A stretch of DNA of 52,612 bases, taken from Lachnospiraceae bacterium (GTDB lineage Bacteria > Bacillota > Clostridia > Lachnospirales > Lachnospiraceae). The stretch spans positions 1-52,612 of the forward strand of contig JAFUPV010000020.1 of NCBI GenBank assembly GCA_017472605.1, read 5' to 3'. Shown piece by piece: positions 39,445 to 50,300 of this stretch; the first letter of the stretch is position 1; each line of letters begins with the position of its first letter. The position numbers were made by a program, and so were the translations under genes. The notes beneath the pieces were generated by a model. The model did not search any database, was not told where the DNA came from, and saw only the letters and a list, made by a program, of their open reading frames with translations.

Positions 39445-41913
39445 TCATACCGTTGCCGTTTTTCTGCGATGACGTGTCTTATACACCAGCTTTCCGTCTG
39501 CCGTTGTCACAGTAACGGTATCGCCCTTTTGTATCGTTCCTTCCAGAATCGCTTCGGCCATCGTATCCTCCAGTTTACTCTGAAGCGCTCTTCGCATCGG
39601 TCTGGCACCATATTTACTGTCGTATCCGGCATCAATCAGGAAATCCCTTGCCTCCTCACTGATCTTAAGCGTAATTTCCATCTGTTCCTTTACACGTCTG
39701 ACGATTCCGGCAGCCATGATCTCAAAAATCTCTTTCATATGATCCTTGTTCAGCGGATGGAAAACGATGATCTCATCAATCCGGTTCAAAAATTCCGGTT
39801 TAAAATTCTGCTTCACCTCATCCATTACCCGGTTCTTCATGAAATCATAATCTGCTTTTGCATCCTCTGATACGCCGAAACCAAGCCGTTTCGGTGTCAT
39901 TATGTTCTGTGCGCCGCAGTTTGAAGTCATGATGATCACCGTATTTTTGAAGCTGACTCTTCTTCCCTGGGAATCGGTGATCTGTCCGTCATCAAGAACC
40001 TGAAGAAGTATGTTGAAAACATCCGGATGCGCTTTTTCAATCTCATCAAACAGAAGAACTGAATATGGGTTCCTTCTGATCTTTTCCGACAGCTGTCCGC
40101 CTTCTTCATATCCCACATATCCTGGCGGTGATCCGATCAGTTTGCTGACACTGTGCTTTTCCATGTATTCCGACATGTCAACACGGATGATCGCCTGTTC
40201 CGTTCCAAACATCGCCTGAGCCAGAGCTTTTGACAGCTCCGTCTTTCCGACGCCCGTCGGACCAAGGAAAAGAAACGAACCGATTGGACGCTTTGGATCT
40301 TTCAAACCGACACGACCGCGCCGAATCGCCTTCGACACGGCACTGACCGCTTCTTCCTGACCGATCACACGTTCATGCAGAATCTTTTCCAGATCACGCA
40401 GACGCTGCGCCTCGCTCTCTTCCAGTGCGCGCACCGGTATTTTGGTCCACATGGCAACCACATCGGCAATCTCCGCCGAAGTCACCTGCGGACGCGTCTC
40501 TTCTTTTTCCTTCTTCCACTTTTCTGTCAGTTTCCGGATTTTTTCCTGTTTCCGTTCCTGCTTCTTCTTGATTTCACCAGCCTGTTCAAACGCTTCCTGC
40601 TTAATCGCTTCTTCCTTTTGAACAGACAGCGCTTCCACTTCCTTCTCCAGCCTGGTAATCTCTTCCGGAGCAACAAACGCGCCAAGGCGCACTTTGGATG
40701 CCGCCTCATCAATCAGATCAATCGCCTTATCCGGAAGGAAACGATCGTTAATGTAACGAGCAGAAAGCTTTACTGCACTCATCACAGCATCATCTGTAAT
40801 TTCTACCTTGTGATGCTCCTCGTAAGCATGTCTCAGGCCCTTCAGGATGGCCGCCGTTTCTTCTTCTGACGGCTCGTCAATCATCACCGGCTGGAACCGG
40901 CGCTCCAGTGCCGCATCCTTTTCTACATGCTTCCTGTACTCATCGATTGTCGTCGCACCGATGATCTGAATTTCTCCTCTGGCAAGACACGGTTTCAGAA
41001 TGTTTGAGGCGTTCATGGCGCCTTCCGCACCGCCTGCATCAATGATTGTGTGCAGTTCGTCGATGAACAGAAGGATTTCACCGTCACTTCTCACTTCCTG
41101 AATGATGTTTTTCATCCGTTCCTCAAATTCACCGCGGTACTTTGATCCCGCGATCATTCCGGCCAGATCAAGCGTTACCACACGTTTGCCGCGGACACTG
41201 TCCGGAACATTTCCGCTGATGATTTCGCTGGCAAGTCCTTCTGCCACCGCAGTTTTTCCGACACCCGGTTCACCAATCAGACAGGGATTGTTTTTTGTCC
41301 TTCGGCTCAGAATCTGAATCACACGGGCAATCTCCCGTTCTCTGCCAATGACAGGATCCAGTTTTCCTTCCCGCGCCAGAACCGTCAGATCGGTACTGTA
41401 CTGATCCAGCTGCGGTGTTTTTGTTGAATGCCCGCGGGAACCAAACGATTCCGCCTCTTCTCTTGACAGCGACGGTTCTCCGCCCTTTACCGAGATCAGT
41501 TCCAGATAAAGCTGACGGATGTTTACTTTCATTGTTGTAAGAAGTCTTGTTCCCGCGCAGTCCATGATTTTCAGGATCGCAATCAGGATGTGCTCCGAAC
41601 CAACCAGATTACATTTTAACCGTTTTGCCTCGATGCAGCTGTTTTCAATCGCACGATACGCACTGGGCGAGTAGCCGTCCGGCTCCTTTAATGAGACAGA
41701 ATTTGCGGGAGCAACCAGTCTTGAAATCATGTCAACCAGCTTCTTCTCCGTCACTCCGTGCGCGTTCAGAAGCTGAGCTGCCGCACAGGATTCCACTCTC
41801 AGCATGCCTAACAGAAGATGCTCTGTTCCCACATAGTTCTGATCGAGATCTTCCGCAGCTTCTCTTGCCTCTTCCAGAACCTCTTTCGCCCTTCTGGTAA
41901 ATCGATCAAACAT
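39445..41913 (-). CDS. clpC: ClpC, AAA+ unfoldase of the ClpCP protease
   Basis: An 822-residue class I Clp ATPase. Two N-terminal Clp repeats retain the glutamates that bind phospho-arginine in Bacillus ClpC (GTEHLLLG, E31; GSEHILIA, E107). Two AAA+ modules have Walker A GEPGVGKTAVAEG and GPTGVGKTELSKA, separated by a coiled-coil M domain (about 400-480). It unfolds proteins for ClpP. The ATG follows GGAGG by 7 bases, 24 bases after mcsB. It is the last gene of the stress operon. No clpP is in the window. Confidence 0.97.
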   Translation of the reverse strand: MFDRFTRRAKEVLEEAREAAEDLDQNYVGTEHLLLGMLRVESCAAAQLLNAHGVTEKKLVDMISRLVAPANSVSLKEPDGYSPSAYRAIENSCIEAKRLKCNLVGSEHILIAILKIMDCAGTRLLTTMKVNIRQLYLELISVKGGEPSLSREEAESFGSRGHSTKTPQLDQYSTDLTVLAREGKLDPVIGREREIARVIQILSRRTKNNPCLIGEPGVGKTAVAEGLASEIISGNVPDSVRGKRVVTLDLAGMIAGSKYRGEFEERMKNIIQEVRSDGEILLFIDELHTIIDAGGAEGAMNASNILKPCLARGEIQIIGATTIDEYRKHVEKDAALERRFQPVMIDEPSEEETAAILKGLRHAYEEHHKVEITDDAVMSAVKLSARYINDRFLPDKAIDLIDEAASKVRLGAFVAPEEITRLEKEVEALSVQKEEAIKQEAFEQAGEIKKKQERKQEKIRKLTEKWKKEKEETRPQVTSAEIADVVAMWTKIPVRALEESEAQRLRDLEKILHERVIGQEEAVSAVSKAIRRGRVGLKDPKRPIGSFLFLGPTGVGKTELSKALAQAMFGTEQAIIRVDMSEYMEKHSVSKLIGSPPGYVGYEEGGQLSEKIRRNPYSVLLFDEIEKAHPDVFNILLQVLDDGQITDSQGRRVSFKNTVIIMTSNCGAQNIMTPKRLGFGVSEDAKADYDFMKNRVMDEVKQNFKPEFLNRIDEIIVFHPLNKDHMKEIFEIMAAGIVRRVKEQMEITLKISEEARDFLIDAGYDSKYGARPMRRALQSKLEDTMAEAILEGTIQKGDTVTVTTADGKLVYKTRHRRKTATV

Positions 41914-41937: not shown

Positions 41938-42978
41938 TTATTGTTTCAGCAGCGGCAGAAAACGCTGTAAATAATCTGCTCTTGCCTGATCCATCGCCTC
42001 ACCTTCCAGGTTTTTCTCATAGAAAACCCGAAGACTTGCCGGCTGGATTCCTATCATTAATTCATAGATATTGCAATATTTTTCAAAGGTAATCACCTGT
42101 TCTTCCTGTCCCCAGCGGAGAGAGGAAAGCAGACGCATTCCGGATGAAAGAGACATCAGTCTGGAATACCGGAGATTTCCATAGGCTTTCAGGCAGATGT
42201 CCTCTGCATGGATCCGGTGCCGCTCTACCGAATGTCTGCGCAGACTCTTTTCCTGGGATATGAGCTGACTGCCAACCTTCTCGATCACCTGAATGATTTC
42301 CTGTTCGCTGATGCCAAGCGTTTTCTGATTGGACAGGACATACATGCTGCCGCTGATTTCCTTATCCTTTCCAAAGGCGGGGCGCAGCTTCACGCCATAG
42401 CGGCTGATTTCTTCAACGATATCCGAAAATTTATCCACCGAATCAAGCAGTGCCAGGTGAAGGACAAGATAAGCTTTCATACCGGTTCCCAGATTGGTCG
42501 GATACGTTGTCATATAGCCCAGTGTCTCATCATAGGCATATGGATACATTTCGTTGATACAGTCGTCCAGTTTGTCGATCTGAGCCCAGATCTGCTGCAG
42601 CTCCATTCCGCTCTGACTCAGCTGCAAGCGGATGTGGTCCACACTGTTGACGGTAATGCTGACCGCTTCATCACCGGACACCAGAAGACCGGCGCCTTTT
42701 GGATCCTTTACCGATGCTCCGTTTATGATCTGTTTTTCTTCCAGTGCTTCCCGTTTCATCGAGTCCATCTGGTCCAGCCTGCAGTCCTCATAGCTTCTTC
42801 CGTCGATCCGGGAGATTCGCTTCAGCTTCCTGCACAGGTCATCTGTCATTTCTTTTGTCTGTTGTTCCGACATTTTTCCGGGAAAACAGCAGGCATTCAG
42901 GTTTCGCGACAGACGAATTCTGCTGGCAGCCACAACGGACGATTCCGTTCCGGCTTCATCATACCATTTCATGCTCAT
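41938..42978 (-). CDS. mcsB: McsB-type protein arginine kinase homologue, probably inactive
   Basis: A 346-residue guanidino-kinase-fold protein with SRIRLSRNL, DHIRLQ, PTNLGTG and SNQKTLG, as in McsB. By eye against Bacillus McsB, catalytic positions differ: the NEEDH glutamate (E121) is Val113 in NSVDH; E212 (GEGSE) is Lys204 in GKDKE; the Cys167 position is Tyr159; Arg176 is Lys168. Loss of two catalytic glutamates suggests the protein cannot phosphorylate arginine. It could still act as an adaptor for ClpC. The start overlaps the mcsA end by 20 bases and follows AAGG. The alignment is from memory and needs checking. Confidence 0.85.
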   Translation of the reverse strand: MSMKWYDEAGTESSVVAASRIRLSRNLNACCFPGKMSEQQTKEMTDDLCRKLKRISRIDGRSYEDCRLDQMDSMKREALEEKQIINGASVKDPKGAGLLVSGDEAVSITVNSVDHIRLQLSQSGMELQQIWAQIDKLDDCINEMYPYAYDETLGYMTTYPTNLGTGMKAYLVLHLALLDSVDKFSDIVEEISRYGVKLRPAFGKDKEISGSMYVLSNQKTLGISEQEIIQVIEKVGSQLISQEKSLRRHSVERHRIHAEDICLKAYGNLRYSRLMSLSSGMRLLSSLRWGQEEQVITFEKYCNIYELMIGIQPASLRVFYEKNLEGEAMDQARADYLQRFLPLLKQ

Positions 42979-43525
42979 TTTTCATCCTTTCCTTCAGGCT
43001 CCTGATCTCATCCCGATAGCGGGCTGCCGCCTCAAAGTCTTCCTCTCTGACTGCCTCCTGCTGCTTTGCCTGCAGGATCTCCAGCTGATCCCTCAATGAT
43101 TCTTTTTCCTTCTCCTGTGTTACCAGCTTTTCGTGCTCTGCGGTACAGCCGGTATACCTTGGTCTTTTTCCGACATGTTTATCGCTTCCCTGCAGTTTTT
43201 TGATGTTGTCATGGATCAGAAGTCCAAACGTTTCATAGCACTCGGAACAGCCAAACCGGCTGTTTTTTACAAAATCGCCATAGGTTGTGCTGCAGGAAGG
43301 GCAGGTCAGCTTCATGGCTGCATCCTCTTCCTGTTCTTCTTCCGGCGTACCAAATCCAAGAATACCGGAAAGAAGACGGGCAAAGGGAGATCCCGTATCC
43401 AGAAAGGCTCCCAGACCGCTCTGCGATGCACACTGACTGCAAAGATGACGCTCCTTCGCAACACCTCCCGCCACTTCACGGATCACAACCGTAGCCTCTC
43501 TCTCATTGCATTGTTCACATAACAT
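42959..43525 (-). CDS. mcsA: McsA, zinc-finger activator of McsB
   Basis: A 188-residue protein with two CxxC pairs in each half: CEQCNERE..CSQC near the start and CPSC..CSEC in the middle, then a C-terminal UVR motif (EEDFEAAARYRDEIRSLKE). McsA binds zinc and activates McsB, and the UVR motif contacts ClpC. The ATG follows GGAGG by 9 bases. Its end overlaps mcsB. The four Cys pairs are all intact, so McsA appears functional even though McsB does not. Confidence 0.93.
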   Translation of the reverse strand: MLCEQCNEREATVVIREVAGGVAKERHLCSQCASQSGLGAFLDTGSPFARLLSGILGFGTPEEEQEEDAAMKLTCPSCSTTYGDFVKNSRFGCSECYETFGLLIHDNIKKLQGSDKHVGKRPRYTGCTAEHEKLVTQEKEKESLRDQLEILQAKQQEAVREEDFEAAARYRDEIRSLKERMKNEHEMV

Positions 43526-43542
43526 GAATCACTACCTCCGGG

Positions 43543-43920
43543 TTATTTCTGTTCAAACGTCTCATCATAGATCTGGTCTACCAGATTATGGATTTCTTCT
43601 CTTGAAATCCGTTTACAGTACGCTTTTGCAAGAATCACTGACAGATTCTGCTTCACTTCTTTCATCGCTTCCAGCTTATCAATATCGATGCTGATGCAGG
43701 CGCCTCTTCTCCGGTCAACTTTGACAAATCCTTCCTGACGAAGAACGGAATAGGCCTTATTTACTGTATGCATGTTGATTCCGATGTTGTCTGCCAGAGT
43801 CCGGACGGAAGGAAGGGAATCTCCCTCGCGAAACTGGTTCATCGCAATTCCAAGTATGATCTGATTTCGAAGCTGCATATAGATCGCTTCATCGCTGTTA
43901 AAATCAATTTTTATAATCAT
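43543..43920 (-). CDS. GntR-family (YtrA-type) transcriptional regulator
   Basis: A 125-residue protein. Residues 10-75 form the GntR winged helix (YMQLRNQIILGIAM, LPSVRTLADNIGINMHTVNK). The short C-terminal tail is helical, as in the YtrA subfamily, and holds no large ligand domain. It lies directly before mcsA, where Bacillus and many Firmicutes have ctsR. It is likely to control this operon, its own synthesis, or both (inference). YtrA-type proteins usually respond to cell-wall stress or antibiotics. The ATG follows AGG with 7 bases spacing. Confidence 0.88.
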   Translation of the reverse strand: MIIKIDFNSDEAIYMQLRNQIILGIAMNQFREGDSLPSVRTLADNIGINMHTVNKAYSVLRQEGFVKVDRRRGACISIDIDKLEAMKEVKQNLSVILAKAYCKRISREEIHNLVDQIYDETFEQK

Positions 43921-43938: not shown

Positions 43939-44718
43939 TTAGTTTTCCTCATCGTCGTACTCATAATCATCGTCATAGTCATCATACTCATCATAATCGT
44001 CGTACCACTCGTCCTGCTGACTGCTCTCATCGTTTTCATGATCGCTTTCGTCCAGCTGAATGATCCGCAGACCATCCTGATCCGTTGTCTTCATCGTGCG
44101 GCTTTTCTGTGTCAGCCGCTCAATCTGAAGAAGCAGTTCCTCTTCCTGCTTTCTCGCCATCTCCACACGCTCTTTTGTCTGTCTCCTCTTCTCCTCGCGT
44201 GCCGCCTTCAGCCGTTCCCGCTGCCGCTTGACCAGCATCCGCTTAATCAGGAACGAGATCCACAGCACAACAGAAAGAGCAGCGCAGACACCAATTCCAA
44301 TTGTTATATAGCGGTTCGTTCCTGTTGTTATGTGATGCAGGAAGCTTTCCGTGGACGCTGCCGATTCTGTAACAGCGGCAGTCTCCTGCGGCTGTCCGTC
44401 GGTCTGATTTTCAGTCAGCGTTACCGTCTCCGTTTCCTTTCCTTCACCAACCAGAACGCGGATCCGGTACACAGTCTGCTCATAATCTTCACCAGTCACC
44501 GTTACCGTTACCTCGTTTACTCCGGGACTCAGGTTGGAATTGCCGTTTATGGTATAGGTATGGCCCGCCTTTGCTTTTCCCTTGACAAGAATTTTTGTCA
44601 CATCTTCGGCAACCTGTACTGTGTATTCATATACATCCGGCTGAAACGAAATTCCACCCGGATTGATTTCCAGCATTTCAAGCTGCGGATTCTCTTTTGT
44701 ATTTGCCCCCTGACTCAT
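43939..44718 (-). CDS. membrane protein with cadherin-like beta-sandwich domain
   Basis: A 259-residue protein. Residues 10-95 form a cadherin-like sandwich (LEINPGGISFQPDVYEYTV..TYTINGNSN). A transmembrane helix lies at about 140-160 (YITIGIGVCAALSVVLWISF). It is followed by a long basic coiled coil (RQRERLKAAREEKRRQ) and an Asp/Tyr-rich acidic tail. No cleavable signal peptide is seen, so the sandwich would be exported by the internal helix. The ATG at 44718 is behind GGGGG. It starts the operon that continues with the GntR gene, mcsA, mcsB and clpC. Confidence 0.8.
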   Translation of the reverse strand: MSQGANTKENPQLEMLEINPGGISFQPDVYEYTVQVAEDVTKILVKGKAKAGHTYTINGNSNLSPGVNEVTVTVTGEDYEQTVYRIRVLVGEGKETETVTLTENQTDGQPQETAAVTESAASTESFLHHITTGTNRYITIGIGVCAALSVVLWISFLIKRMLVKRQRERLKAAREEKRRQTKERVEMARKQEEELLLQIERLTQKSRTMKTTDQDGLRIIQLDESDHENDESSQQDEWYDDYDEYDDYDDDYEYDDEEN

Positions 44719-44824
44719 TGTATTTCCCCCAGTTCCTTTCCATTGTTGATACATCCGATCGGATTTTATCCATCATGCAGACCGCTTTTTCTCAGCAATC
44801 TGCTGTCATGCGTATGTTATACAT

Positions 44825-44830
44825 AATATA
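44825..44830 (-). promoter_or_regulatory. possible extended -10 of the cadherin-clpC operon
   Basis: On the minus strand TGCTATATT (hexamer 44825-44830) resembles an extended -10; no -35 is clear. I see no CtsR operator (paired GGTCAAA) or CIRCE element between 44719 and 44940. Confidence 0.35.
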
Positions 44831-44942
44831 GCACACCTTGCTTCAGAAATCCATCACTTTTTTTACTTTTTTTGCACGACGCCCGCTGTCCTGCCAGAAA
44901 GCGCTTTTTGAGAAATCCAGCTGCAGTTCACGAAAGGAAGAA

Positions 44943-45004: not shown

Positions 45005-47266
45005 TCAGATATTTTTGAAATCGGTGATATCAAAATCTGCGCTTACTTCTTCGGTTTCGCCAAAGATATCTTCTGTCAGCTTTGCCGGTTTCTGCTTCGC
45101 AGCAACCTTTACCGATTCTGTCATGTTGTTGTCGGCAGTCAGATCTACCGTCAGATTTTCACTGCCGTTTTCCCACATTTCTTCCTCTGTCGGTCTCGGA
45201 CGCTTCTTCTTCGGTGCAGCCTTCTGTGCGCCTTCCGCAGTCGGACGCTTTTTTGCCGACGCATCGCCAACCGGTTTTCTTCTTACTACCGTATCTCCTG
45301 TAACAGCACTTTCCGAACCCTCAGAAACAGGACGTCTTCTCTGTGCAGCTTCACCGGTCGGGCGTCTTCTTTCCGGGTTCTCAGATGCCGGACGCTTTCT
45401 TACCGGCGCGTCAGCAGAGGTTCTTCTTACTTCATCTGTGCGGCGCTCACCCTGACGTGCTCTGCTTGCCGGTCTTGCCTCAGATACGGAACCTCTCTGA
45501 GCAAACATATCCTCATCTCTGCGCGGTCTTGCCGGGCGGGCATCAGAGGTACCCTCCTCGCGGGCAACTGCTCGCACTCCCTGGTAGGACTGTCTCTCAG
45601 AATACTCTCTTGCTTCTCTTGCACGGGCTGCATTTGCGCTCTGCTGATATTTCTCAGCCTTTGCCTCTGCCTCTCTGAGCAGCTTCTTTCTCTTTCTGAG
45701 GGAAGATCCCATTACTGCGATGATCAGAAGAAGAAGCAGGCTGACAGCGCCAAGTCCGATGATAATCAGCGCGCGGTAAAGCATGTTCTTCTCGTGGTCA
45801 CTGTTCAGCTGATTGATCTGTGAAGATGCGGACGCATACTGGCTCTGGTATTTTGCAATACTCTCCAGCAGTTCGGGATCATCCGTCGGCGGCTCTGTTG
45901 TTGTCGGAGCAGTTGTAACAACGTCCTCGACAAAACGGATCAGTACACCTTCGGATCCGTCAAAACGGTAGATGTCTTTCTGTCCCTTGGAATTGATTGC
46001 ATAGACAAAGAACATTCCGTCCGCTTCCACTAACGGATTTCTCCATGCAGGAAGCTCAACCATGACACCGTTATTGTTCATGGAAATCTTTACTTCTTCA
46101 AACTCTTCCGGAATCTCAACATCCTCATCCGGGCTGATGATGATATAGCTGTCATCGACATTGCTGAAACGGCAGTAACGAACCACTTCGTCTGTGCTTT
46201 CATTATAGGTGTACCAGACGATTCCTCCGTCCTCTCCTACAACCGGGAGAAGAATCACGCCTTCTGCGGTTCTTGCAACATAATACCCCTCACCGTGATA
46301 TGTATAGCTGATCTGCTCACAGCTGCTGTCCGGAAGAGCAATTCCATCCAGATTGGGAGCAATCACAAGCGCTGGTTCTTCCTCACTTGGTGCAGATTCC
46401 TCTGCAGAAGAAGATTCCTCTGCGGAACCATCCTCCAGAGCTGCCATGCGAAGCTCTTCACTCTGTGATACAATATCCGCGCTCTCATCGGTCTCTGCCT
46501 CCGTAGTAACCGGTGCCGGAGTCGTTGATACCGGAGTCGGTGCCGGAGTAGTCACAGGCGCTGCCGTAGTCGGTGCCGTAGTCGGTGCCGGAGTCGTCAC
46601 AGGCGCTGCCGTAGTCGGTGCCGGGGTCGGCACAGGTGCCGCTGTAGTCGGCGCCGGAGTGGTCACAGGTGCTGCTGTGGTCGGTGCCGGGGTGGTTGCC
46701 GGTGCCGCTGTAGTCGGTGCCGGGGTGGTCGCCGGTGCTGCTGTAGTCGGTGCCGGAGTGGTTGCCGGTGCTGCTGTAGTCGGCGCCGGAGTGGTTGCCG
46801 GTGCCTCAGTCGTAGTCGGTGCCGGGGTCGTTTCCGGTGCCGGAGCTGTTGCAGCAGCCGCACAGCTGACGGAAGCGCTGCCTGAAATGTTGGATGATTC
46901 TCCGGAAGTACCGCTTGCCGCCTGACCGCTGATCGATACAGACGCATTTCCTGCACCGATTACGTCAAAGGTAACCGAGAAGCTTCCTGTTGATCCCATT
47001 ACTACTTTGTTATTTGCCAGATTCACGTCTCCCGTTGACGCGGAAACTGCTCTCAAACAGGAAGCATCGTAGGAAATCACTCCCTGAAATACCGATCCTG
47101 CATCCGCGCTGGAAAAAACATAGGTTACGTCAACTGTACTTCCTACCGTCGCGCTGCCGCTGCCCGGTACAACAGAAACTGATTCTCCTGCTGCAAAGCT
47201 GGCCGAACCGCCCATGCTTCCCAGAACAAGAAACAGCGTTAAAAACAAGGTTAATACCTTCTTCAT
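45005..47266 (-). CDS. surface protein with cohesin-like domain, Pro/Thr stalk, membrane helix and basic cytoplasmic tail
   Basis: A 753-residue protein. A signal peptide (KKVLTLFLTLFLVLGSMG) leads to a cohesin-like sandwich (SVVPGSGSATVGSTVDVTYV, about 28-145). A TTPAPTTAAPA repeat stalk follows (about 145-265), then a globular domain (295-455) without a family I know. One transmembrane helix (ALIIIGLGAVSLLLLLIIAV, about 500) precedes a coiled coil and a basic Arg/Pro-rich tail with RRRPTGEAAQ-type repeats, ending acidic. So it is anchored by a helix, not by sortase. The ATG follows GGAGG by 9 bases, 56 bases after purD with no promoter seen. Confidence 0.85.
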   Translation of the reverse strand: MKKVLTLFLTLFLVLGSMGGSASFAAGESVSVVPGSGSATVGSTVDVTYVFSSADAGSVFQGVISYDASCLRAVSASTGDVNLANNKVVMGSTGSFSVTFDVIGAGNASVSISGQAASGTSGESSNISGSASVSCAAAATAPAPETTPAPTTTEAPATTPAPTTAAPATTPAPTTAAPATTPAPTTAAPATTPAPTTAAPVTTPAPTTAAPVPTPAPTTAAPVTTPAPTTAPTTAAPVTTPAPTPVSTTPAPVTTEAETDESADIVSQSEELRMAALEDGSAEESSSAEESAPSEEEPALVIAPNLDGIALPDSSCEQISYTYHGEGYYVARTAEGVILLPVVGEDGGIVWYTYNESTDEVVRYCRFSNVDDSYIIISPDEDVEIPEEFEEVKISMNNNGVMVELPAWRNPLVEADGMFFVYAINSKGQKDIYRFDGSEGVLIRFVEDVVTTAPTTTEPPTDDPELLESIAKYQSQYASASSQINQLNSDHEKNMLYRALIIIGLGAVSLLLLLIIAVMGSSLRKRKKLLREAEAKAEKYQQSANAARAREAREYSERQSYQGVRAVAREEGTSDARPARPRRDEDMFAQRGSVSEARPASRARQGERRTDEVRRTSADAPVRKRPASENPERRRPTGEAAQRRRPVSEGSESAVTGDTVVRRKPVGDASAKKRPTAEGAQKAAPKKKRPRPTEEEMWENGSENLTVDLTADNNMTESVKVAAKQKPAKLTEDIFGETEEVSADFDITDFKNI
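46510..46830 (-). repeat. tandem 33-base repeats (Pro/Thr stalk) in the cohesin-like gene
   Basis: About eight to ten units on the minus strand encode TTAAPATTPAP. Most changes are synonymous or swap Ala and Val; two units are shortened near 46560. Confidence 0.9.
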
Positions 47267-49274: not shown

Positions 49275-50300
49275 TTACTTCAGAATGATGCCCTTCTCGC
49301 CTTCTTCAATAGATCCGACAATGTAAGCGGTTTCTCCGGCAGCCTTCACTGCAGCAACAGCTGCCTCTGCCTTGTCTGCGTCAACTGCGAAGACAAGTCC
49401 GAGACCCATGTTATAGGTATTGTACATCATCTGATCCTCCACATTTCCGGTCTTCTGCATCAGCTTAAAGATCGGCGGTACCGGATAGCTGTCTTTCTTA
49501 ACAACAGCTACTGTATTTTCTTTCAGCATACGCGGAATGTTCTCATAGAAACCGCCGCCGGTGATGTGGCTGCAGGCTTTTACACGAATTCCGGCTTCCT
49601 TTACACTGCGAAGTGTTTTTACATAGATCTTGGTCGGTGCCAGAAGCGCTTCCCCAAGCGTTGTGCCAAGCTCATCATAGTAAGTTTCCAGGCTTTCCTT
49701 TGTCATTTCAAAGATCTTGCGGACAAGGGAGAAACCGTTGGAGTGAACACCACTGGAGGCCACACCGATCAGAACATCGCCGGCCTTCAGATCTTTGCCG
49801 GTGATCATATCCTTCTCGTCAACGATACCAACTGCAAAACCAGCCAGATCATACTCATCTTCCGGATAGAATCCAGGCATCTCAGCAGTCTCACCGCCGA
49901 TCAGAGCCGCATCTGACTGAACACAGCCGTCGGTAACACCTTTCACAATAGTAGCAATCTTTTCCGGATAGTTTTTGCCGCATGCAATATAATCCAGGAA
50001 GAACAGCGGTTCACCGCCTGCACAGGCAATATCGTTTACACACATTGCAACACAGTCGATACCAATGGTATCATGCTTATCCATGATAAATGCCAGTTTC
50101 AGCTTGGTTCCAACACCATCGGTACCGGATACCAGAGTTGGCTTCTCCATGTTCTTAAAACGTTCCATAGAAAATGCACCGGAAAAACCTCCGATATTGG
50201 TCAGCACCTCAGGACGCATTGTCTTTTTAATGTGTTCCTTCATCAGTTCCACGGACTTATATCCGGCTTCAATGTCTACTCCAGCGTTCTTGTAATCCAT
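49275..50300 (-). CDS. purM: phosphoribosylformylglycinamidine cyclo-ligase
   Basis: A 341-residue AIR synthetase, step five of purine synthesis. The segments [32 protein letters not shown] and [18 protein letters not shown] are typical. The ATG at 50300 follows GAGGAGG by 7 bases; the frame is open upstream without support. It is the first gene of purM-purN-purD. The other pur genes are not in the window. Confidence 0.97.

Follow-up and report, generated by a model that had tools for sequence, protein, structure and literature searches.

A McsB homologue without its catalytic residues, kept beside McsA and ClpC in a Lachnospiraceae genome

We analysed a stretch of 52,612 nucleotides from a Lachnospiraceae bacterium (assembly GCA_017472605.1, contig JAFUPV010000020.1; this whole stretch is called the window), in which a homologue of mcsB lies with mcsA upstream and clpC downstream of it (Table 1). 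A reading of the sequence alone had proposed that this McsB lacks its catalytic residues, and that it is either a pseudokinase adaptor for ClpC or an enzyme with a different chemistry. We find that the residues in question are indeed replaced, and judging from them the protein is likely to have no arginine kinase activity.

The best matches of the window McsB among solved structures are the McsB chains 8wtb, 6tv6, 6fh1 (which we take to be the Geobacillus protein) and 8gqd (phmmer, E ~1e-47 to 1e-48), and these matches span its residues 4-338 or 8-338. The phosphagen-kinase catalytic domain PF00217 is found with 151.2 bits (cut-off 22.4) and the full-length fold of McsB, including the C-terminal domain, is present; the best NCBIfam score, 286.7 bits, stays below the equivalog cut-off of 385 (NF002194). 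Where the solved chains have NEEDH, TSCPTN, GTGLRAS and YGEGSE, the window protein reads NSVDH, TTYPTN, GTGMKAY and FGKDKE. The second glutamate of NEEDH (E121) is V113, the active-site cysteine (C167) is Y159, the arginine after it (R176) is K168 and the glutamate of the lid loop (E212) is K204. These are exactly the replacements listed in the sequence-only reading; an alignment with McsB structures could have placed glutamates at both catalytic positions, and it gave Val113 and Lys204. The alignment is gapless here, and V113, Y159 and K204 are spaced as E121, C167 and E212 are (46 and 45 residues).

Table 1. Features of the window around the mcsB homologue (aa, amino acids; ORF, open reading frame)
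Feature	Positions	Strand	Basis
clpC, 822 aa, N-domain E31 and E107 retained	39445..41913	-	ORF, residue scoring
mcsB homologue (346 aa) with phosphagen-kinase fold, catalytic residues missing	41938..42978	-	ORF, structure alignment, profile match
M329 codon (R337 position, phospho-arginine-receptor site)	41992..41994	-	aligned segment 333-344
K204 codon (E212 position)	42367..42369	-	alignment with solved McsB chains
K168 codon (R176 position)	42475..42477	-	alignment with solved McsB chains
Y159 codon (C167 position)	42502..42504	-	alignment with solved McsB chains
V113 codon (E121 position)	42640..42642	-	alignment with solved McsB chains
mcsA, 188 aa, four CxxC pairs and UVR motif; 20-base overlap with mcsB	42959..43525	-	ORF, CxxC count, domain search
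GntR-type regulator, 125 aa, in the position of ctsR in Bacillus	43543..43920	-	ORF, domain search, locus survey
271-aa protein with cadherin-like domain, between box and gntR	43939..44754	-	ORF, domain search
GntR box TGTGCTA-N7-TATAACA (TGTGCTATATTATGTATAACA), likely (predicted) operator of the operon	44815..44835	-	pattern match

Much of the protein is conserved. Both SRIRLSRN and DHIRLQ are in the translation, as had been noted, and most of the phosphate-binding arginines are retained, R176 being lysine (which arginines bind phosphate is partly our presumption). Furthermore, 36 of 51 near-invariant McsB columns are kept, where columns 121, 167, 176 and 212 are invariant through the choice of rows. 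A sequencing error was considered and rejected, as the congener L073 carries the identical four residues (V, K, Y and K at 121, 212, 167 and 176); in the second congener, L066, these positions hold E, T, Y and K. A second, intact McsB elsewhere was rejected as well, since the genome has a single PF00217 match.

In arginine kinase, Glu225, Glu314 and Cys271 accept hydrogen bonds from the substrate guanidinium and are termed essential (PMC11075012). We equated these residues with E121, E212 and C167 of McsB by motif. All three guanidinium-holding side chains are replaced in the window protein and, because they are lost and a lysine stands in the lid loop, arginine phosphorylation by this protein would be very unlikely. 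R337 and D338 form the phospho-arginine receptor site of McsB, and their double mutation destabilises the multimers (PMC8370763); the corresponding motif RDxxRA is MDQARA in the window, so that one of the two residues is kept (D338) and R337 is methionine. With its catalytic residues lost and its fold kept, the window McsB is, to judge from these residues, probably a pseudokinase. This part of the proposed pseudokinase adaptor is well supported by the replaced guanidinium holders and by the phosphatase search described next.

We searched for the phospho-arginine phosphatase YwlE with a profile built from eight copies of intact-McsB genomes. The matches were scored on the nucleophile cysteine, the P-loop arginine and the aspartate, and those below 70 bits were taken as ordinary low-molecular-weight phosphatases. 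We were not able to find a YwlE-like match in the window genome in this profile search at E<=1e-22; the best match had 38 bits. The family, genus and order searches together gave 72 same-family genomes with a scored McsB. Fourteen of them have both glutamates and the cysteine, five have both glutamates without the cysteine, and 53 have a changed glutamate, mostly E121D (one of the 53, L018, is counted through an alignment gap at 212). A catalytic YwlE is found in 12 of the 14 genomes with an intact McsB. Where only the cysteine is lost, none of the five has a catalytic copy (four dead, one absent), and among the 53 we see three catalytic copies, one with Cys and Arg and without Asp, eight dead ones and 41 absences. 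The three catalytic copies accompany McsBs that have only Glu-to-Asp changes and Cys or Ser at 167. Sorted by residue 167, catalytic YwlE occurs in 15 of 25 genomes with Cys or Ser and in 0 of 47 with Phe, Tyr, Trp or Ala (Fisher p 2.8e-9, kinship ignored). A DNA pattern for the P-loop matched in 8 of 80 genomes, all with E, E, Cys and Arg in McsB; 7 of the 15 genomes with McsB and, by profile, a catalytic YwlE escaped it, so our counts rest on the profile.

YwlE-like proteins are also found in 109 of the 229 family genomes without a McsB match, and 45 of the 69 proteins scored, 40 of which were chosen and not drawn at random, lack the catalytic cysteine or arginine. Many dead copies (L181-L250) retain the stretch SRGLVVLFPEPxNPKA and not the catalytic loop, a hint that some role other than catalysis has been retained. 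In L201:1489-3102, L219:40-1569 and L246:70-1587 the YwlE-like domain is the C-terminal part of a longer ORF, the start of which presumably resembles TsaC/Sua5 by its motif; the domain has lost the P-loop arginine in L201 and the cysteine in L246.

The window McsA has its four cysteine pairs and ClpC both N-domain glutamates, as the sequence-only reading had it. With the window protein as query, McsA is found in 70 of 299 family genomes, the same 70 that have McsB. The number of CxxC pairs in 40 same-family McsA loci is four in 37, five in one and two in two (one of the latter, L032, ends close by). Downstream of mcsB there is clpC in 40 of 41 same-family loci, and the remaining locus ends 119 bases past mcsB. 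Both ClpC glutamates are present in all 69 same-family loci scored, 13 with an intact and 56 with another McsB. We considered these glutamates as a sign that phospho-arginine is still read and rejected this, because the N-domain pockets that bind phospho-arginine also anchor the resting state of ClpC (PMC12583610), so that their presence says little on this point. Outside the family, where loci were drawn from both ends of the score lists and give no frequencies, one or both glutamates are replaced in 7 of 24 loci with a non-intact McsB, compared to 0 of 65 with an intact one. Five of these seven are from genus g432 of f66, and such changes would fit a loss of the phospho-arginine reader, too. 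In L145 and L147-L150 (f66, same class) the McsB active site is gone and the first ClpC N-domain glutamate is replaced in 5 of 5 aligned; CtsR was found in both tested genomes of the f66 genus with changed McsB and ClpC.

How widespread is the altered McsB? PF00217 is present in 70 of the 299 genomes of the family (61 of the 246 more complete ones) and in 3 of 3 genomes of the window genus, and 229 of 299 (185 of 246) have no McsB match. The named matches in a search for relatives are mainly Lachnospiraceae and unclassified Clostridia, and we take the family to be Lachnospiraceae accordingly. Of the 72 McsBs, 58 depart from E, E and Cys, many of them only by an exchange of Glu for Asp, and 14 are intact. 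A non-acidic residue at 121 or 212 is found in 20 of the 72 genomes, and at both positions in six. The active site has been lost in rows of other families as well (f33, f55, f66, f87, f3 and others). In one genome (G063), two near-identical McsB copies, L021 and L032, are on two contigs, perhaps from a strain mixture.

A tree of 141 McsBs was calculated with the columns at issue left out. The copies L001, L154, L072, L084 and L155 had been excluded from the alignment, and the tree itself was made without L137, L151 and L172 and with no more than two E/E rows from each outside family. The window groups with L073 and L066 in a clade of three rows (Shimodaira-Hasegawa-like approximate likelihood ratio test, SH-aLRT, 99), nested in a clade of nine rows (96), which is nested in one of 45 rows (99). 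Cys167 occurs in none of these 45 rows; residue 167 is nearly always Phe or Tyr, 121 is mostly Asp, and E212 (67%) and R176 (71%) are mostly kept. In the nine-row clade the letters at 121/212 are V/K twice, E/T, N/E, Y/F, D/Y, D/E, D/P and T/S. On the whole tree a non-acidic residue at 121 or 212 requires 16 changes, and at both positions eight; the quick method and the long branches (L152, L153) make these counts approximate.

Could phosphate still be transferred, slowly or to another residue? The pattern at 121, 167, 176 and 212 in the 45-row clade looks constrained and not random, and this would fit such a residual or altered chemistry, as would the phosphate-binding arginines that are left beside the lysine at 176. 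On the other hand, with Val at 121 and Lys at 212 both carboxylates are gone and a positive charge comes to lie next to the substrate, the scattered letters of the nine-row subclade are unlike a new, fixed active site, and YwlE was not found in the window genome. We regard this explanation as improbable, and nothing in our analysis supports the different chemistry that had been suggested.

The gene might also be in plain decay, heading for loss with no function of its own. The lineage often loses McsB, given the 229 genomes without a match, the active site was lost many times, and the ratio of nonsynonymous to synonymous substitution rates (dN/dS) is somewhat higher in degenerate pairs than in closer intact ones. 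However, the window McsB has a full-length frame and is 55% identical to that of L073, with dN 0.37, dS 3.4 (saturated) and dN/dS about 0.11. Decay also sits badly with the retained near-invariant columns, with the strict co-occurrence of McsA and McsB across the 299 genomes surveyed, and with a clade that persisted and diversified without Cys167. We therefore consider decay doubtful at best; constraint on the degenerate McsB may continue, perhaps weaker than on the intact protein.

The regulation of the operon differs as well. CtsR was not found in the window genome (PF05848, 0 matches; assembly 95% complete) and is missing from all 72 same-family genomes; of the 7 same-class genomes with a degenerate McsB, 5 have it. 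A GntR-type gene, sought with one query protein so that a diverged one could escape, precedes mcsA in 63 of the 69 same-family loci that have room for it, compared to 0 of 76 such loci outside the family. Of 77 gntR loci, 59 have the palindrome TGTTATA-N7-TATAACA ahead of the gene with two mismatches or fewer, compared to 0 of 77 regions shuffled once each; the 77 loci include apparent repeats (L251 and L073, for example) and are not 77 species. The window box is about 900 bases ahead of gntR because the gene with the cadherin-like domain intervenes, and boxes are at a similar distance in L251, L066, L056 and L253. With up to three mismatches allowed, the box pattern occurs four times in the window (0.63 expected), and the site 49409-49429 has two mismatches, as does the box at 44815-44835. 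The minus strand at 45005-47266 encodes an apparently secreted protein in which PTTTAAP-like units form a long tandem array.

These features would fit an anti-repressor that is independent of the kinase: McsA would hold McsB, and oxidation of the McsA thiols would free McsB to take the GntR repressor off its operator. In B. subtilis, oxidised McsA releases McsB, which then takes CtsR off the DNA with its kinase activity prevented (PMC5506225). The four CxxC pairs in most same-family McsAs, the GntR gene upstream of mcsA in most loci of this family and in none of those scored outside, and the shared box, found also in the window, agree with this explanation. On the other hand, GntR is present with intact McsB, too (11 of 12 loci with room), and is independent of the loss of catalysis; GntR proteins usually respond to small ligands, and none is known to us to touch McsB. 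We find this explanation unlikely, though less so than residual chemistry or decay.

The account that we favour, and hold to be fairly probable, is that the lineage abandoned the phosphorylation of protein arginines and retained a catalytically dead McsB, which partners McsA and shares an operon with ClpC. The pairing of McsA with McsB, the kept fold and the position beside clpC suggest a role of the complex that does without catalysis. Binding alone could act, because the N-domain of ClpC is bound by the McsA/McsB complex, and ClpC becomes active when the anchors of this domain are disturbed (PMC12583610). The complex of McsA and pseudo-McsB would bind the N-domain directly, without phospho-arginine, and would switch ClpC or bring clients to it, and the McsA thiols may set the timing; we give these steps less weight than the lost activity.

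Several observations weigh against this account. Two of the intact-McsB genomes are without a catalytic YwlE: in one the copy is dead, in the other it is absent. The association between McsB and YwlE is not significant when kinship is allowed for; the supported branches yield just 2 to 3 independent pairs, too few for the test to reach significance. Out of 40 YwlE proteins from McsB-less genomes (the 20 best-scoring and 20 others, chosen and not a random draw), 32 score as dead, 7 as catalytic and 1 as intermediate, so that dead YwlE is common in the family with McsB changed or missing alike. Since mcsA and mcsB are adjacent, one deletion could explain their joint loss. Degenerate-McsB pairs have dN/dS of 0.07 to 0.15 compared to 0.02 to 0.10 in the closest intact pairs, which are much closer kin. 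Single mutants of arginine kinase at the two glutamates are reported (Pruett, 2003) to retain some activity. Three genomes with a Glu-to-Asp McsB retain a catalytic YwlE, so that a change at the glutamate sites alone does not amount to loss. Finally, McsB of B. subtilis needs its kinase activity to stimulate ClpC (PMC5506225). Because the adaptor role depends on it there, the role as a ClpC adaptor, which is plausible for the window McsB, would need an altered mechanism.

In summary, we rank the effect on ClpC first, the anti-repressor second, and residual chemistry and decay last. For Lachnospiraceae as a whole, we tentatively propose, as something that may well hold without our calling it probable, that the phospho-arginine pathway was dismantled and its proteins kept: McsB as a pseudokinase on McsA, YwlE as a pseudophosphatase or gone, CtsR replaced by GntR and its box, and the complex controlling ClpC by binding alone. 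If this is true, the regulatory complex of McsB outlived its enzyme activity, which suggests that the quality-control module of McsA, McsB and ClpC can function when its chemistry is gone. For McsB of B. subtilis, the kinase role and the adaptor role have been difficult to tell apart (PMC5506225). Lineages with McsA, McsB and ClpC and no active site separate them naturally, and allow us to ask directly whether binding of McsA-McsB alone can switch ClpC. For a genome annotated with McsB or YwlE, arginine phosphorylation cannot be assumed. We found no account of a catalytically dead McsB or YwlE in a literature search of partial coverage, most subscription journals lying outside it; the available part of PMC12599244 names McsB only in its reference list.

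Compared with McsB of Bacillus, Geobacillus and Staphylococcus, the window protein shares the fold, the length, a McsA partner with four CxxC pairs, the order mcsA-mcsB-clpC and most phosphate-binding arginines. Unlike them, it lacks E121, E212, C167 and R337, a GntR-type regulator heads its operon, and neither YwlE nor CtsR was found in its genome. Hanks-type Ser/Thr pseudokinases have a different kinase fold from that of McsB. They are alike in being kept in evolution without catalytic residues, for example Pkn5 of Chlamydia (PMC5177608). The proposed mode of action of the window complex resembles that of MecA, which activates ClpC through the N-domain without phospho-arginine (PMC12583610), and of other ClpC adaptors; the likeness that we propose is one of mode.
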